Assembly (NCBI GenBank): GCA_030057915.1
Contig: JASGUC010000053.1
Coordinates: 1 to 44,696 of the forward strand
From: Pseudomonadota bacterium
GTDB lineage: Bacteria > Desulfobacterota > Syntrophia > Syntrophales > UBA8958
DNA length: 44,696 bases
Direction of reading: 5' to 3'
Position numbers and translations under genes: made by a program. Numbering within the stretch: the stretch's first letter is position 1; each line of letters starts with the position of its first letter. Under the pieces are notes generated by a model. That model had not been told where the DNA came from and searched no databases. It was given only the letters and a program-made list of their open reading frames with translations. Positions 7,779 to 33,644 of the stretch are shown here, piece by piece.

Positions 7779-8210
7779 AAGTGGGCCCATTGCGGCAGAA
7801 ATTGTGGCGTGAACGACGGGTGAGAATAGGCCCATTGCGGCAGAAATTTTCAGGTGATTTTTCAGGTGAAAACTTTTTGACCGTCGTCGATTCCACCTAT
7901 AATATCAGGTACTTTACCTATGCCGGCGCGCCGGCATAGGTATTGGCAATCTGTCAGATAATCGCCGCCTCCCGGCCTTGGCGAGGTGGTTCGCGGGTAT
8001 CTTGACGGGCAACAACCGGCGCTGCCCCCGGGACGATGCCCGGGGGGCGCTCATTTCCGGGGGCGTTCATTCCCCCGGGTGTTCATTCCCCCGGGTGTTC
8101 ATTCCCCGGGGGTGCTCATTCCCGGGGCGCTGCCCGAGGGCGTTCATTCCCCGGGGCGCTCATTTCCGGGGGCGCTGCCCCCGGGGCGCTCATTTCCGGG
8201 CGCGGATGCC
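7779..8210. repeat. Long direct repeat element, copy B, with expanded GC-rich tail
   Basis: Copy B repeats the order of copy A: the tandem 46-bp units (GGCCCATTGCGGCAGAAATT type), two TTTTCAGGTGA motifs, the same palindrome, and the CTTGACGGGCAACAACCGGCG segment. Its tail (about 8024-8210) is expanded into a long run of GGGGGCGTTCATTCCC-like units of about 15-18 bp. Open frames across it (Gly/Ala/His/Phe-rich in one, Asn-Glu-Arg-Pro-rich in another) are by-products. Downstream, 8211-8374 shows nothing recognisable except a motif shared with the YfhO-like gene at 8254-8277. Confidence 0.75.
7916..7941. repeat. 26-bp perfect palindrome in repeat copy B
   Basis: Identical to 507-532; both half-sites and the absence of a loop are conserved although neighbouring bases differ between the copies. 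Confidence 0.85.
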
Positions 8211-8374
8211 CCATGAGCGGTTGCCATTTACGCCCATGTCTGTGCGGGGGCATGGGCGAAAGGTGGAAATATCCAAATGCTTGCAGGCATTTTTGTGCGG
8301 AGGTGCAAATGTCTTCCACCCTTGACAAGGCCCTGAATTAGTGGCGCCCAAGCCGTTTATATTTATATAACTAC

Positions 8375-23067: not shown

Positions 23068-24003
23068 ATGCAAAAGCTCATCACTATCGTCACACCCTGC
23101 TTCAATGAAGAGGAAAACGTCAGGGAAGTTTATCAACAGGTGAAGGATGTTTTTGCGCAAATTCCTGCTTACCGATATGAACATATCTTTATTGACAATG
23201 CCTCAACGGATAGAACTGCTTCGATATTGCGTGAAATCGCTCAAAATGACTTTAATGTTAAAGTCATTATCAATTCTCGAAATTTTGGTGTTGCCAGATC
23301 TCCCTATCATGCCCTAATGCAATCCCGGGGAGACGCCTCAATAGTTGTAATGGCTGATCTTCAGGATCCGCCGCCAGTCATCAAAGATTTAGTTAGAAAA
23401 TGGGAAGAAGGTTATAAAGTTGTTTTTGCAATCAAGGAAAAAAGTGAAGAATCATCCGTCATGTTTGCGATCAGGAAGTTTTATTACAATCTTTACAATA
23501 AAGTATCCAACATCCAGATTGTTTCAAATTACTGCGGATTCGGGCTTTATGATAAAACCATCCTTGATATATTGAGAAAACTGGATGATCCATGCCCTGA
23601 CATTAGAAGCCTCCTTGGTGAAATAGGTTTTGAAAAGGCGATTGTTAAGTATGTTCAACCTATAAGGAAAAAAGGAAAGTCAAAAAACAATTTCTATAAT
23701 TTATATGATCAGGCCATGCTGGGAATCACCAGAGACTCAATTATTCCTCTTAGGATTGCCAGTTTTATTGGTTTTTTCGTTGCCGCTATCAATTTCATGG
23801 TGGCGATGGCATATTTCATATACAAGCTGATTTACTGGGATAGTTTCCAACTGGGTATGGCGCCAATGATAATCGGGATTTTTTTCTTTGGTGGCGTGCA
23901 GTTGTTTTTTCTTGGCGTTATCGGAGAATATATCGGCGCCATCTTTACACAGGTCAAAAAACGACCGCTGGTTATTGAGAAGGAAAGAATCAATTTTGAT
24001 TAG
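23068..24003 (+). CDS. GT2 glycosyltransferase, GtrB/DPM-like, with two C-terminal membrane segments
   Basis: 311 residues. GT-A domain: IVTPCFNEEENVREVY, IDNASTDRT, SRNFGVARS and VVMADLQDPP (metal-binding aspartates). Two membrane segments follow (about residues 233-257 and 270-295), as in GtrB-type bactoprenol-phosphate glucosyltransferases. The C-terminus ends RPLVIEKERINFD. It would load a sugar onto polyprenyl phosphate, with GtrA as flippase. Its 3' end is repeated at about 26226-26353. Confidence 0.85.
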   Translation: MQKLITIVTPCFNEEENVREVYQQVKDVFAQIPAYRYEHIFIDNASTDRTASILREIAQNDFNVKVIINSRNFGVARSPYHALMQSRGDASIVVMADLQDPPPVIKDLVRKWEEGYKVVFAIKEKSEESSVMFAIRKFYYNLYNKVSNIQIVSNYCGFGLYDKTILDILRKLDDPCPDIRSLLGEIGFEKAIVKYVQPIRKKGKSKNNFYNLYDQAMLGITRDSIIPLRIASFIGFFVAAINFMVAMAYFIYKLIYWDSFQLGMAPMIIGIFFFGGVQLFFLGVIGEYIGAIFTQVKKRPLVIEKERINFD

Positions 24004-26368: not shown

Positions 26369-26803
26369 TTGAAGACTAGGGGCGGGTCGTTATGGCGGCG
26401 GCATCAAGTCAAGATACGCTTCCTGATTGTGGGCGTCTGGAACACCCTTTTCGGCTATGTCGTTTTTCTTGTCCTGTATGCCCTGTTCCGTGATCTTCTC
26501 TCCCCCCACTATGTGGCCTATATGACGGCCAGCGTGATCGGCAGCATCCTGGCCATTACGAACGCCTTTTTTTTCCATAAGCATATCACCTTCAAGTCGC
26601 CCGAGAAGGGGTGGGCGGCCCTCCGGGAATATGTCCGCTTTGCCGGCACATACCTTTTCAGTTTTGTTTTGAGTCTGATCCTGCTCCCCATCTTTGTAGA
26701 ACTGGCGGGAATGACCCCGCAGATCGCCGCCGCGGTGATTATCCTGATCTGCACGGTTTTCAGCTACCTCGGCCATTCCCGTTTTTCTTTTCGTTCCCGA
26801 TAG
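26369..26803 (+). CDS. GtrA-family membrane protein (polyprenyl-P-sugar flippase)
   Basis: About 144 residues from a TTG at 26369. Four membrane segments are visible: KIRFLIVGVWNTLFGYVVFLVL, the AYMTASVIGSILAITNAFFF block, YLFSFVLSLILLPIFVEL and AAAVIILICTVFSYLGH. Conserved ends are VGVWNTLFGY and FLGHSRFSF-like. GtrA proteins move bactoprenol-linked sugars across the inner membrane for the GtrB partner. Its natural partner is now only the 3' fragment upstream; the full GT2 is 2.4 kb away. Confidence 0.85.
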   Translation: MKTRGGSLWRRHQVKIRFLIVGVWNTLFGYVVFLVLYALFRDLLSPHYVAYMTASVIGSILAITNAFFFHKHITFKSPEKGWAALREYVRFAGTYLFSFVLSLILLPIFVELAGMTPQIAAAVIILICTVFSYLGHSRFSFRSR

Positions 26804-26814
26804 GAGGGGTATTT

Positions 26815-29712
26815 ATGAGCGACGCACGCCCCGAATCCGGATCCTTTCGTCAAGCCCGCGACAATCGTCCATGGGACGCCTTCGACTGGCGCCACGCCCT
26901 GTTTGTCCTGGCGGTCCTGATGCTGGGGATGTTCGGCGATGTCCTCTTCTTCGACGACGGTCTGATCCTGTCCGCCAAGGGTCTGGACCTCTATAACGGC
27001 GAGTTGTCCGGCTTCGATTTTCTCTCCCGTGAGTTGAGGAAGGGCAATCTTTCCCTGTGGATTCCCCATGTCTTCTCGGGAACATTTTCTCTTGCCACGG
27101 CCCTTTATCCGTCCCTCGCGCTGCATCTTTTTCTTCCCCTCCCGTTGGCCGTCAATTGGGGTATCGCCCTGCATGTCCTGCTGGCGGGCTTCTTCATGTA
27201 CCTGTGGACGGCCCGGCGGGGCCTGCATCCTTTGGCCGCGCTCACGGCGGCGGTGATATTCATGTTTTCCGGGCCTTTCTATTTGCACGTCCTCGCGGGG
27301 CATGTGTGCAACCTCTGCGCCATGACCTGGGCGCCCCTGATCCTTATGACGGTGGACGGGATGGTGGAGCGGCCGTCTTTGCGGTGGGCGCTGCTGGGGG
27401 CCTTTGCCGTGGCCATGCAGGTCCTCACCGGGCAGTTTCAGTACGTCTATTATATGGGTCTGACGGCGATCCTGTACAGCCTTGTCCGCCTGTCGGGGGT
27501 CAAACGCCGGCGGGCGGCCATCCTGGGGCTCTTTGGCATTGCCGCGGGCGGGCTGCTCCTGAGCGCCTTTCATCTCCTGCATGCGCTTGCGGCGGCGGGA
27601 GAAGGGGTGCGGGCGACGGGGGTCGCGGTGAGCTTTGCCGCCATGTTCAGCTTTCCCCCGGAGAATTTCCTCACCCTGGTCGCGCCGTTTTTCTTTGGCG
27701 ACATCCAGGATTTTCCCTACTGGGGGCGCTGCTACCTGTGGGAAATGTGTCTGTTTACGGGGGTAGTCGGTTTCTGCATGGCCGTCTTTGGCGCATTGAA
27801 AGGAGATCGACGGCGCCGGTTTGAATTGTTCGTCATGATCGCCATCCTGGCGATTGTGGCATTGGGGGCGCATACGCCGCTCTTCAAGCCGCTGTTTTAC
27901 TGGCTCCCCGGTTTCGACAAGTTTCGCGGGACCTCGAAGTTCATGTTCTTTGCGTCGATGTTCTGGATCATGCTGGCCGGTTACGGATGCGATTTGGTGA
28001 TCCGGGGGGCGGGACGTGAGGCGAAAGGGGAGGTGAAGGGGGATGCGAAAGGGGAGGGGAGACAGGCGGCAAGTCGGGGAGTGGAACTGGAGGCGAAAGG
28101 GACGGCGGGATCTGAGACTGACATAGGGCGGGAAGAGACCTCCGGAGTGGCGCCCGCGGCGGGGAGGGAGGTGAAAGGGGAGGTGAAGGGGGGTGCGAAA
28201 GGAGAGGGGAGACGGGAGGCAAGTCGGGGGGCAGACCTGGAGGCGAAAGGGGTGCCTGGATCTAAGGCTGACATAGGGCGAGAAGAGACCTCCGGGGCGG
28301 CGTCCGCGGCGGGGCGGGAGGCCGGGTATGCGCCGGGGTGGGAGGCGAACCCGGCGGCGGGATCTGGCATAGGACGGGAGGGGGAAGCGGGGGACGCCGG
28401 GGTTGGCGCAGTGAGGACGTCCTCTGTGTTTGCCGAGATTCCCCTCGTGGTGGCGGTGCTTTTGGGCGGTTTGGCGATCTGGCTGTATTATGCGCCTTTT
28501 CCCGGCGGGGAAGCGGCAACGGGCGGTCCTTCTCTCTGGAATGCCCTGGTCAGTCTTGTCGCCGGTTCGAGAGAATCCTATCTGTCCGGGGAATTATACA
28601 AAAACCCACATTTTCTCCATGACGCCCGGCAATTTGCCGCCGCCGGCCTGTTCGCCGCCGCGGGGGTCGCGTTCATAGCCGGGGGGCTCATTTATCTGCG
28701 GCGTTCATCGCCAAGGGCCGTCTATGCCTTGATCCTCCTGGCTGTTGTGGAGATGTTCATCTTTGGACGTGCGAGCCGCCCGACCTTCGCCTATGAGGAT
28801 TTGCAGATTTCTCAATTCAAGGGCTTTCTTGCGGCCCATCCCGGCGATTACCGGGTCCTGAACCTTGTCAATCCCAATACGGCCTTGTCCACGGGGGCCC
28901 AGGACATCTGGGGATACGGGCCGGCGGCGCTGGGGAGGTATGTGCAGTTCATGGCCTGGACCCAGGGGGCCGACCCGGACCGGGCGACGACCTACCTGAA
29001 AATTAATCAATATCATCCCCTCTTCAGGATGCTCCGGCTGCGGTATGCCTTCATCGCGGGAGAAAAAGGCATCGAGGTCCGGGAATTCGGGGATTGGTTG
29101 CCGCGGGCGTTATTGGTGGGCGATTGGCGGGTCGCGGGAGACAGGGAGGAGGTCTTCCGGGAATTGGGGAAGCCGACCTTTGATCCGCGCCAGACGGTGA
29201 TTCTCGAAAGGAAGCCGAAGCTTGCAATAACACATGCCGGCATGACGACAGATTTGCCGGCGACCGATGCCAATATGGCGGTGGATTCACCGCGTGTGCC
29301 GGTGAACATTCCTGGGGGCGAAGGTGGAAATATCCAAAAGAGCGCCCCGCCGCCTTTGCCCATGTCCGGGCCTGTGAAGGCGGGCACCCGAAATACCTGC
29401 GCGATTTTGGAGAGCGGGGGGGATCGCTTGACGGTCAAGGCGCATATCGCCGTCCCCGCGATGTTGCTTGTCACCGATAACTACAGCCGGGGTTGGCGGG
29501 CGCGCTCGCTAACGGCGGGGAAACAAAGGGAGTATGAAATTATGCCGGCCAACTACACCCTGATGGCCATACCCCTTGCTGCGGGTGAACACCTGTTGCG
29601 TGTCGAGTACCGCCCCCGGCCGTTCATCATCGGCGTCTGGGTTTCTACGTTTGCCTGGATTGGCTTTGGCGCGCTGCTTGGCTTGGCCTTCCTCAAGCGA
29701 AACCTGCTCTGA
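26815..29712 (+). CDS. YfhO-like multi-spanning membrane protein with large in-frame insertions
   Basis: 965 residues from ATG 26815, which has a strong AGGAGGGG site in front. It has a dozen or so membrane segments, beginning LFVLAVLMLGMFGDVLFF. The early loop (LDLYNGELSGFDFLSRELRKGNLSLWIPHVFSG) and the C-terminal beta domain with VTDNYSRGWRA are typical of YfhO/GT-C-like membrane proteins involved in glycan modification. Two regions look foreign: residues ~400-538, a Lys/Glu/Gly/Ala-rich segment made of 150-bp repeats, and residues ~805-860, a Pro/Ala-rich stretch. Both are in frame. Whether the protein is still functional is unknown. Confidence 0.75.
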   Translation: MSDARPESGSFRQARDNRPWDAFDWRHALFVLAVLMLGMFGDVLFFDDGLILSAKGLDLYNGELSGFDFLSRELRKGNLSLWIPHVFSGTFSLATALYPSLALHLFLPLPLAVNWGIALHVLLAGFFMYLWTARRGLHPLAALTAAVIFMFSGPFYLHVLAGHVCNLCAMTWAPLILMTVDGMVERPSLRWALLGAFAVAMQVLTGQFQYVYYMGLTAILYSLVRLSGVKRRRAAILGLFGIAAGGLLLSAFHLLHALAAAGEGVRATGVAVSFAAMFSFPPENFLTLVAPFFFGDIQDFPYWGRCYLWEMCLFTGVVGFCMAVFGALKGDRRRRFELFVMIAILAIVALGAHTPLFKPLFYWLPGFDKFRGTSKFMFFASMFWIMLAGYGCDLVIRGAGREAKGEVKGDAKGEGRQAASRGVELEAKGTAGSETDIGREETSGVAPAAGREVKGEVKGGAKGEGRREASRGADLEAKGVPGSKADIGREETSGAASAAGREAGYAPGWEANPAAGSGIGREGEAGDAGVGAVRTSSVFAEIPLVVAVLLGGLAIWLYYAPFPGGEAATGGPSLWNALVSLVAGSRESYLSGELYKNPHFLHDARQFAAAGLFAAAGVAFIAGGLIYLRRSSPRAVYALILLAVVEMFIFGRASRPTFAYEDLQISQFKGFLAAHPGDYRVLNLVNPNTALSTGAQDIWGYGPAALGRYVQFMAWTQGADPDRATTYLKINQYHPLFRMLRLRYAFIAGEKGIEVREFGDWLPRALLVGDWRVAGDREEVFRELGKPTFDPRQTVILERKPKLAITHAGMTTDLPATDANMAVDSPRVPVNIPGGEGGNIQKSAPPPLPMSGPVKAGTRNTCAILESGGDRLTVKAHIAVPAMLLVTDNYSRGWRARSLTAGKQREYEIMPANYTLMAIPLAAGEHLLRVEYRPRPFIIGVWVSTFAWIGFGALLGLAFLKRNLL
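28012..28430 (+). repeat. In-frame 150-bp tandem repeats inside the YfhO-like gene
   Basis: Units start at 28012, 28162 and 28312, exactly 150 bp apart. The first two each encode GRE(A/V)KGEVKG...KGEGR(Q/R)(A/E)ASRG...LEAKG...DIGREETSG; the third begins GREAGYAPG and degenerates by about 28430. The coding strand is very G-rich. Within each unit short KGE/KGD/KGG words repeat again. The segment lies in a loop between membrane spans. Confidence 0.9.
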
Positions 29713-29825: not shown

Positions 29826-32066
29826 TTGCAATCCTGTTCATTCCCCAAGCGCCATGTCGCTTCTTCCGTCTCAAGTTTAAACGATCATCATAACAAGGGA
29901 GCCATTTGGAAACGTAAGAAATTGTTTTTATGGCCGTTGTTTAGTCTTTTTCTATTGAACATCTGCTGGGCCGTGGAACCGTCAATCGCACCGCCCAGTG
30001 AAACCAGCGTCTCCGCGGAAAAATCCGGCGTCAAGGAGACCCGCGCCGCAAAAAACGGGAAGGAATTCGAGGTCTATGAGCTTGGAGAAGTCGTGATTTC
30101 CGCGGAAAATGCCGGGATCAAGGAAGTAGCCATCGTCAACGAAATAACCGCCGGCGATATCGAGGCCACGAACAGCAAGACCCTGGCCGAGGCATTATTT
30201 CATGCCCCCGGCGTTCGCGTAGCCACGGGCGCAAAGAACGCGCCCAATGTCTCTATCCACGGTTTTGCTCAGCACCGGATTCTCGTGCTGATCGATGGGG
30301 TACCCTATTATGAGACCAGATATGGCCTGCTGGATTTGAACCAGATTCCCACAGAGAATATCGCCAAAATCGAGATCACCAAGGGCGCCGCTTCCGTCCT
30401 CTACGGGGCCAATGCCCTGGGCGGGGTCATCAACGTTGTCACCAGGAAGCCCTCCGACAAGCCCTACGCCAGGGCCTCCATGGAGTTTGGCAATTACGAG
30501 TCGCAACGTTATTCCGCCACGCACGGCATGAAGGCCGGGATATTCAATTACTGGCTGAATTACACCCATGCCAGGTCAAACGGTTATCGTCTGTCCGAGG
30601 ATTTTGAGCCCACGCCAAGCGGGATCGGCAATAAAAAAGGGAAACCCCAATTTTTAAGAATCGTTCAGGAGAAGGGTCAACGGGTCAATTCGGACTACAT
30701 AAGCAATAATGTCTGGGCCAAGGTCGGGATAGAACCAACGAAAGATTCCGAGTATTACGTGAATTTTCATTACCTGGACCGAGATAAGGCCTGGGCGCCC
30801 TCCACCAATTCAGCGGCCAATTCCATAAGGTATTTCCCCGATAAGCCCGCTTTCACCAATTTTGCCCGCCTTCCCAATTATATCGACTGGGGGATCGATC
30901 TGGACGCCAAACAAAAGATATCTGACAAGGTAATCCTGAAGGCGAAGCTCTTTTATCACGATCACACCGATGACCTCGCGTCCTATGATGATGAAACATA
31001 TGACAGGAAGCTCGCCCTCAGCACGTACAAGGATTACTTAATGGGCGTGTCCTTCTTTGCCGATTATCTACCGGTTGCCTGGGATACCCTGAGATTTTCC
31101 GCCCACTACAAAAAGGACAATCATGAGGAGCGCGCCGATAATTACCTGCCTTTTGACGAATCCACCTCCTTCACCGGTTCCGTGGGCGTGGAAAATGAGT
31201 TCAACTTCGTGAAGAATTTGTCCGTTGTGGCCGGCATCAGTTATGACTGGTTCAAGGTGGACAAAGCGGAGTCAACAAAAACCAAGAAGAACGGCGATTT
31301 CGATTATAAGACCCAACACCCCACGGGCAACACCGATACCTGGAATCCCATGGGGGGTGTTGCATACACCTTCGCCGATAAAACGAAATTATTCGGTTCC
31401 GTGGCCAAAAAGACCCGTTTCCCGAATCTGGGCGAGCTATTCGGCGGCGACAAGCCGAATCCGGATCTGAAGCCGGAAAGAAGTCTGAATTACACCCTCG
31501 GAGTGTCACGCCCCTTATCCACGTATGCCAAAGCCGGCGTTTCGGCATTCTATTACGATGTTGACGACATGATCACCAGGGACACCCCGCCCGAGTTGAA
31601 ATATCCGTCTTACGTCAACTACGACAAGGTCGAACTATACGGCCTGGAGGTGAGCGCCGAGATTTACCCCCTGGATGATTTGGTGCTCCGGGCCGACTAT
31701 ACATACGAAGAGGCCCGCAATCGTAGCGAAGGGCGGGTGACGGACGATGTGACCTATGTTCCGAGGCATAAGGTAAACCTCGCCATGCAATACTCCCTAC
31801 CCGTGATCAAAACCCGCCTCGATTTCGACATGACCTATGTCGGAGACTTGTACTGCCAACTCCCGACCCCGTCAAAGCCGACCAATGAAGTACAGAAGAC
31901 GAGTGATTACACGATCTTCGATGCCAAGCTCACCCAACCGATCTGGAAATATTTTGAGGCTTATGTGGCCTGCAAAAATATTTTCGATAAAAACTACGAA
32001 CCGGAGGTCGGCTACCCGGCGCCGGGACGCAGTTTCTGGGTAGGGCTGGCGGCGAAATATCTTTAG
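29826..32066 (+). CDS. TonB-dependent outer-membrane receptor
   Basis: 746 residues from a TTG at 29826 with GGAGG 10 bases upstream. A signal-peptide core (KRKKLFLWPLFSLFLLNICWA) starts near residue 30, so the true start may lie further in; an ATT with AGGGAG before it is also in frame. A TonB-box-like FEVYELGEVVISAE precedes the plug domain (LAEALFHAPGV, ILVLIDGVPYYE, IAKIEITKGAASVLYGANALGGVINVVTRK). The beta-barrel ends with the aromatic C-terminus FWVGLAAKYL. The ligand is unknown; the neighbours suggest a metal complex, corrinoid or similar. First gene of the ten-gene operon. Confidence 0.9.
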   Translation: MQSCSFPKRHVASSVSSLNDHHNKGAIWKRKKLFLWPLFSLFLLNICWAVEPSIAPPSETSVSAEKSGVKETRAAKNGKEFEVYELGEVVISAENAGIKEVAIVNEITAGDIEATNSKTLAEALFHAPGVRVATGAKNAPNVSIHGFAQHRILVLIDGVPYYETRYGLLDLNQIPTENIAKIEITKGAASVLYGANALGGVINVVTRKPSDKPYARASMEFGNYESQRYSATHGMKAGIFNYWLNYTHARSNGYRLSEDFEPTPSGIGNKKGKPQFLRIVQEKGQRVNSDYISNNVWAKVGIEPTKDSEYYVNFHYLDRDKAWAPSTNSAANSIRYFPDKPAFTNFARLPNYIDWGIDLDAKQKISDKVILKAKLFYHDHTDDLASYDDETYDRKLALSTYKDYLMGVSFFADYLPVAWDTLRFSAHYKKDNHEERADNYLPFDESTSFTGSVGVENEFNFVKNLSVVAGISYDWFKVDKAESTKTKKNGDFDYKTQHPTGNTDTWNPMGGVAYTFADKTKLFGSVAKKTRFPNLGELFGGDKPNPDLKPERSLNYTLGVSRPLSTYAKAGVSAFYYDVDDMITRDTPPELKYPSYVNYDKVELYGLEVSAEIYPLDDLVLRADYTYEEARNRSEGRVTDDVTYVPRHKVNLAMQYSLPVIKTRLDFDMTYVGDLYCQLPTPSKPTNEVQKTSDYTIFDAKLTQPIWKYFEAYVACKNIFDKNYEPEVGYPAPGRSFWVGLAAKYL

Positions 32067-32111
32067 GAGGACAGGGGGCAGGCGTAAGGCGGCTGTTTTC
32101 GGGAGCGAACA

Positions 32112-32546
32112 ATGGAGTGGCTAAGCATTGCCATAGACTATGGAGTCATCGGCTTGCTGGTATTTCTCAGCGTGATTGCCCTGGGAATTGCCATTGAACG
32201 GTTCTATTTCTTTAAGCATATAAAACTCGAGGCTTTTCCGGATAAAACCACGCTGGAAATGGAACTCACGAAAAAGATTCATCTCATTGCCACCATCGGC
32301 AGCAATGCCCCGTATCTCGGTCTGCTGGGAACGGTTCTGGGCATCATGCTCACTTTTTTCATGATCGGCAAGGAGGGACTCATGGACACGGGCAGGATCA
32401 TGATCGGACTGGCCCTGGCCCTGAAAGCCACGGCCGTCGGCCTGTTGGTGGCCATTCCCTCCATATCGTCATACAATATCCTCCTGAGGAAAATTAAGGT
32501 GCTCCTCATGAGCTGGGAGATTGCCCATGGAAGAAAAGAGCTTTGA
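32112..32546 (+). CDS. exbB: ExbB/TolQ/MotA-family proton channel subunit
   Basis: 144 residues: an N-terminal membrane helix (GVIGLLVFLSVIALGIAIERFYFF) and the conserved pair of helices APYLGLLGTVLGIMLTFFMIG and RIMIGLALALKATAVGLLVAIPSI. It forms the inner-membrane proton channel that energises TonB. It is a short form lacking the large cytoplasmic loop of E. coli ExbB. GGGAG precedes the ATG. Confidence 0.9.
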   Translation: MEWLSIAIDYGVIGLLVFLSVIALGIAIERFYFFKHIKLEAFPDKTTLEMELTKKIHLIATIGSNAPYLGLLGTVLGIMLTFFMIGKEGLMDTGRIMIGLALALKATAVGLLVAIPSISSYNILLRKIKVLLMSWEIAHGRKEL

Positions 32547-32907
32547 CTACATCAATGTCATCCCCCTCGTGGATGTCATGCTGGTGCTCCTGACTGTTGT
32601 CCTCACCACCTCCTCCTTTATCGCCGTCGGCGTGATCCCCCTGGACCTGCCCAAGGCGCGCCATACTTCGGGTGAATCCCTGAAAACGCAGATGATCGAA
32701 ATCGACCGGGATGGGGTGGTGTATTTGAACTCCCGCCCCGTTTCCCTCGGCGACTTGAAAGCCAACCTGGATGAAATGAACAGGAAGGCCCCTGTCTTGA
32801 TCCGCGCGGATCGCCTTTGTCACCTCCAAAACTTTGTCGGCGTCCTGGATGTCGTCAAGGGTTTGGAATTTACCCGCGTCAGTCTCCAGACCGAGGAAGG
32901 GTCATGA
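32527..32907 (+). CDS. exbD: ExbD/TolR-family protein
   Basis: About 126 residues: FDYINVIPLVDVMLVLLTVVLTTSSFI holds the single membrane helix with the essential aspartate in PLVDVML. The periplasmic domain follows (IEIDRDGVVYLNSRPVSLGDL, PVLIRAD). It overlaps exbB by about 20 bases and tonB by ATGA. Confidence 0.9.
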   Translation: MEEKSFDYINVIPLVDVMLVLLTVVLTTSSFIAVGVIPLDLPKARHTSGESLKTQMIEIDRDGVVYLNSRPVSLGDLKANLDEMNRKAPVLIRADRLCHLQNFVGVLDVVKGLEFTRVSLQTEEGS

Positions 32908-33644
32908 ATTACCAAGTCAGGGCCTTCCAGTTGTCTTTTTTGATGCACATGGCCATCCTTGTTCCGGCGATCATTTCCGGCATCTTCATGGAGCAGGGCA
33001 TAAAGGCGACGGTCCTCGATTTCGATCTCCTTCCCTCCCCACGGGTCGCCAAAGTGGTTGAGGCGGCGCCGGCGCCTCTTCCCGAGGCCAAGCCCATAAA
33101 GACCGCCGCCCTCCCCACGGTCAGGAAGGGAGAAGCTCCGCAACGGTCGGCGGCGAGTCTCGTGCGTCCTTCCACGGTGGAGGTGATGCCTTCGGCCACG
33201 CTTCCGGAAACCCGGGAGCTGGAAAGGATGCCCATGGGCATAGGCATGCGGGACGAGGAGGAAGCGGGAACGAATGAGGCCCGCGAACTTGTCGGGGGAA
33301 AACAAGAAGCTCCAGGGGTAAAAGCGGAGTCGGTCGCCGGCGATGTTGTCACAAGAGCGGCCAGGGCCAGATATTTGAGCGCCCATTTCGCCTATATCCG
33401 GGACAGGATACTCAGGAATGTTACCTACCCCGAGGCGGCCAAGCGGATGGGCTGGCAGGGAAAGGTCGTTCTCTCCTTTGTCATCGCCGCGGACGGCTCG
33501 GCGAGGGCCTTCAGGATCATTCAAGGCTCGGGTTTCAAGATGCTCGATAGAAGCGCCATCGAGACCGTGCAAGAAACGGCGCCCTTTCCCAGGCCGCCCG
33601 TGGAAGCGGAGCTGGTCATCCCCATCGTCTATCGCCTGGAGTGA
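32904..33644 (+). CDS. tonB: TonB-family energy transducer
   Basis: 246 residues: an N-terminal membrane anchor (FLMHMAILVPAIISGIFM), a Pro/Ala/Glu-rich periplasmic linker, and a C-terminal TonB domain with YIRDRILRNVTYPEAAKRMGWQGKVVLSFVIAADGSA, GSGFKMLDRSAIETVQ and PFPRPP. It couples the ExbBD proton channel to the receptor. ATG 32904 overlaps the exbD stop. Confidence 0.9.
   Translation: MNYQVRAFQLSFLMHMAILVPAIISGIFMEQGIKATVLDFDLLPSPRVAKVVEAAPAPLPEAKPIKTAALPTVRKGEAPQRSAASLVRPSTVEVMPSATLPETRELERMPMGIGMRDEEEAGTNEARELVGGKQEAPGVKAESVAGDVVTRAARARYLSAHFAYIRDRILRNVTYPEAAKRMGWQGKVVLSFVIAADGSARAFRIIQGSGFKMLDRSAIETVQETAPFPRPPVEAELVIPIVYRLE

Follow-up and report, generated by a model that had tools for sequence, protein, structure and literature searches.

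The locus considered here raises a question about a membrane enzyme: why does a gene for a YfhO-like glycosyltransferase carry a tandem repeat that lengthens one loop by a charged stretch of more than a hundred residues, and does the added sequence do anything for the protein? The window, that is the whole 44,696-nt stretch of DNA analysed, had received a first-pass annotation that left the matter between a tolerated expansion and a variable functional loop. Repeat structure, homologues, a structural model and the wider repeat content of the genome were compared.

Architecture of the repeat

A single array with a period of 150 was found by TRF (28018-28322, 2.0 copies, 86% match, score 470). 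Units 1 and 2 are ~87% identical, where the insert's base composition would give about 37%, so that the identity is far beyond chance. The first-pass annotation had described three exact 150-bp units; the period holds, but the copies are not exact (130/150 bases match), and next to two full units the third is a degenerate remnant, parts of which only are in register. A 26-nt motif of the repeat is spaced by 150 nt and then by 102 instead of 150. The 12-bp sub-repeats at the start of unit 1 (Table 1) have similar counterparts in unit 2 (28166-28219, TRF).

Table 1. Coordinates of the repeat, its host gene and neighbouring genes in the window.
Feature	Position	Strand	Evidence
YfhO-like GT-C-fold membrane glycosyltransferase gene, 965 aa	26815..29712	+	Pfam, structure matches, orthologues
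Lineage-specific charged and purine-rich insert (AGREAKGE...GAV), residues ~399-533, with predicted disorder	28009..28413	+	homologue comparison, pLDDT
Repeat unit 1, 50 codons	28018..28167	+	TRF, unit comparison
12-bp sub-repeats GAGGCGAAAGGG, encoding EAKG/EVKG/DAKG, start of unit 1	28018..28057	+	TRF period-12 rows
Repeat unit 2, 50 codons, matching unit 1 at 130/150 bases	28168..28317	+	unit comparison
Decayed third unit, about 48 nt missing	28318..28413	+	26-nt motif spacing; weak ungapped match to unit 2
gtrA-like gene immediately before the YfhO-like gene; product a likely lipid-sugar flippase	26369..26803	+	Pfam GtrA_DPMS_TM E 4.4e-23
GT2 gene, CsbB/GtrB type, likely maker of lipid-linked sugar	23068..24003	+	Pfam Glycos_transf_2 E 1.6e-25

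The insert comprises ~135 codons, slightly fewer than the 140 first given, in frame with the gene starting at 26815; a period of 150 keeps this frame, as had been noted. It encodes 44 charged residues (20 K/R, 24 D/E), in agreement with the charged loop described earlier. Its coding strand is 70% GC and, again as first read, purine-rich (74%), and no other 400-nt window in a 1.14 Mb sample of the genome is as purine-biased (0.742, window sd 0.043). No known domain was matched by the insert in NCBIfam or PDB, and no structured RNA was matched in Rfam within the window. A G-quadruplex-like pattern occurs once, at 28376, beyond the two full repeat units.

The host protein and its gene neighbourhood

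In a profile search, the 965-aa protein is matched by Pfam YfhO (PF09586, E 7.8e-9, 34.9 bits vs a cut-off of 28.5), while in a genome-wide six-frame YfhO search its C-terminal part alone scored, under the cut-off. Orthologues are 37-65% identical in an alignment of ten, the closest at ~65%. With 30 homologues as input, AlphaFold gave a model with a pTM of 0.81 and 599 residues at pLDDT of at least 90; the best Foldseek matches of this model are GT-C enzymes (AftD, PglB, OST, ArnT and PMT; probability about 1), at query-normalised TM of just 0.16-0.29. The model shows a predicted GT-C glycosyltransferase core that is intact despite the insert. D42 and D58, almost invariant in 31 homologues and both present in this protein, are candidates for the conserved acidic (DxD-like) residues that GT-C enzymes have in an extracytoplasmic loop. 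The enzyme regions flanking the insert have pN/pS of 0.34 and 0.43 against G002, with synonymous sites near saturation, and by this estimate the flanking enzyme is under constraint.

A second, shorter insert is seen in the C-terminal domain (~29227-29370, residues 805-852, pLDDT < 50), with a 24-residue counterpart in the closest relative, L035. Within it, a 16-bp sequence at 29323 recurs in an intergenic region at 8262, these being the only two exact copies in the genome; this match was dismissed, as two such matches with at most 3 mismatches were found in 13/100 shuffled windows.

Between the GT2 gene and the gtrA-like gene lie a methyltransferase gene and a gap, and the GT2 protein has two hydrophobic segments near its C-terminus. 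In three-component systems, the lipid-linked sugar comes from a GT2 enzyme, its flipping is attributed to a GtrA protein, and its transfer outside the membrane is the work of a GT-C enzyme (PMC8035078). A GT2 enzyme, a likely flippase of GtrA type and a GT-C transferase are encoded together at this locus too. As the YfhO-like gene follows gtrA and is near GT2, its product probably acts as the last, extracytoplasmic transferase in such a system, and it probably attaches sugars to cell-surface polymers. The YfhO match, the GT-C membrane protein and the C-terminal beta-rich domain are shared with CsbB/GtcA/YfhO systems (PMC8035078; also PMC5836110 and PMC7389260), as are the adjoining gtrA-like gene and the nearby GT2 gene (PMC8035078). 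The present system differs from those of PMC8035078 in belonging to a Syntrophales-related, Gram-negative lineage, in which teichoic acid is presumably not the acceptor, and in carrying the 135-residue insert. In L035, judged from sequence, a GtrA-like ORF is also immediately upstream of the insert-less orthologue. Downstream in the window (29826-33644), a TonB-dependent-receptor-like ORF is followed by ExbB-, ExbD- and TonB-like ORFs, again judged from sequence.

The insert is specific to this lineage

The insert is flanked, in the alignment of ten orthologues, by LVIR (398) and TSSVFAEIP (from ~534); at this place the closest relatives have a few residues only (QEIPLRK, QEITSPK). This loop is the site of the largest insertion in a 31-sequence alignment. 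The distance between the anchors G372 and W575 is 56-78 residues in homologues, 204 in the window protein and 150 in L057, which carries at the same loop a P/T-rich insert of ~85 residues, unrelated in sequence. In L040 (Candidatus Magnetocorallium paracelense), the loop has three exact 18-nt copies of GAGAGAGGAGAAATCAGA (ERGEIR; L040 4620-4673), probably a recent and independent expansion. The insert sequence itself was found neither elsewhere in its own genome nor in any of 40 relatives, in which the same fixed insert, named in the first-pass annotation as evidence that would tell against its reading, had been looked for. A protein-level match in C36 was weak (E 0.245) and was judged to be chance: the region looks like normal coding sequence, and no repeat was seen in it.

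The insert is predicted to be a disordered cytoplasmic loop

The first-pass annotation placed the repeat between membrane spans, and in the AlphaFold model it does form a loop between transmembrane helices. Residues 413-531 have pLDDT < 50 and hardly any secondary structure, and the helices bordering the insert (373-405 before, 537-559 after) are mostly confident. Counting helices from the N-terminus, and backward from the C-terminal domain if this is taken as extracytoplasmic, puts the loop on the cytoplasmic side in both cases; R and K are abundant in several of the short loops there. The insert thus shows in the model as an unstructured coil in a predicted cytoplasmic loop. The active side of GT-C enzymes is outside the membrane, and from the family the insert would therefore be away from it.

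Divergence of the units and reading frame

The 20 differences between units 1 and 2 are spread over the codon positions as 6/7/7, with dN 0.13, dS 0.20 and dN/dS 0.66. Divergence of the units appears nearly neutral, and a dN/dS of 0.66, drawn from 20 differences alone, would be compatible with weak constraint as well. Frame 0 of the insert has zero stops, while each of the other two forward frames contains several, indicating that the reading frame was maintained. In codon usage, the insert scores 4.9 sd below neighbouring coding windows (z -4.9), as expected if a DNA process had set the sequence.

Repeats in the rest of the genome and window

Tandem arrays were surveyed in 1.14 Mb of the host genome (~40%) and in about 95-100 kb from each of four relatives of different GC content. 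The host sample has 113 arrays, or 9.9 per 100 kb, versus 1.0-6.0 in the samples of the relatives. Arrays with a period of at least 30 inside ORFs of at least 300 aa have periods that are multiples of three in 8/8 cases, versus 10/18 elsewhere, some of the counted ORFs probably being spurious antisense ORFs. This pattern of long-period, in-gene arrays with periods in multiples of three has been described for prokaryotic coding satellites (PMC6749651). The 150-bp repeat likewise consists of head-to-tail copies inside an ORF, with a period above 30 nt that is a multiple of three, a unique sequence and an array-rich genome; it differs from the satellites of PMC6749651 in having two full copies only, and in lying in a loop of a multi-span enzyme, not in a surface protein domain. 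The same genome has further long tandem arrays at L077 5003-5290 (period 117), L087 11790-12001 (75) and L095 17315-17680 (168).

Separately, the window has two copies of a dispersed repeat of ~75-90 bp (444-533 and 7853-7942, + strand), which has ~40 copies in the genome and ends in a perfect palindrome, ACCTATGCCGGCGCGCCGGCATAGGT. G008 has weaker relatives of it (76-79%) and G004 has one; six further genomes of the genus have none. Both window copies are within a ~240-bp duplication (~380-622 and ~7789-8031, ~95% identical, 7.4 kb apart), and tandem arrays of a GGGGCGCTCATT unit come after both duplication copies (617-660 and 8030-8212).

Origin of the insert

Most probably, the insert arose by neutral local tandem duplication that was filtered for reading frame and tolerated by a permissive cytoplasmic loop, giving a charged linker with the enzyme core intact. 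The process may have started from a short purine-rich stretch in this loop. Units of 12 bp would have expanded first, with a 150-bp block later duplicated at least twice, by slippage or unequal exchange. Selection on the enzyme would have removed any change that disrupted the frame or introduced a stop, leaving the amino acids of the insert nearly free to drift into a disordered charged linker. The tolerated expansion offered at first reading as one of two options is supported by a lineage-specific insert that is predicted to be disordered and cytoplasmic, by near-neutral units and by unrelated expansions in other homologues.

It is unlikely that the insert is a functional cytoplasmic tether, in which the KGE-rich loop would bind the GT2/GtrA partner, RNA or lipid head groups, tuned by repeat number. 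The predicted side of the loop is that where the GT2 partner works, both units retain a similar charged pattern (EAKGE...DIGREETSG), and the L040 loop likewise has a charged E/R repeat. However, the insert is missing from the closest orthologue although a gtrA-like ORF adjoins there, the L057 insert is unrelated and P/T-rich, divergence is near-even across codon positions, and the insert is predicted to be disordered. For the variable functional loop of the first-pass annotation, nothing was found to point to it in the homologue, divergence or model comparisons.

An assembly artefact, with a wrong copy number or a chimera, is very improbable. Tandem repeats are a known cause of assembly errors (PMC6868369), the genome is in 64 contigs, and 150 is a common read length; against this, the units differ at 20/150 positions, so that they are not duplicated reads, the reading frame stays open at the unit junctions, and the third unit has diverged further. 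The true copy number could, though, be higher than assembled. A mobile coding repeat inserted into the gene, like the Rickettsia palindromic element, was rejected as barely credible: the in-frame insert has atypical codons and the genome does hold a ~40-copy dispersed family, but the insert has a single locus where several copies would be expected, is absent in the 40 relatives, and has no inverted repeats of at least 20 nt.

Implications

A broader reading, given very little weight here, is that YfhO-like transferases have, in the cytoplasmic loop between TM10 and TM11, a tuning loop that has expanded repeatedly and in which repeat number alters partner recruitment or glycosylation level; if true, the loop would be a length-based modulator of surface glycosylation. 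Under the favoured explanation of neutral duplication, the insert represents repeat growth of a common kind and no new system, and the permissive loop that holds it has lengthened in at least three homologues. It would be a clear case of a new disordered segment arising in a polytopic membrane enzyme through duplication, a frame filter and a permissive loop, and suggests that a large insert in such an enzyme need not imply function.
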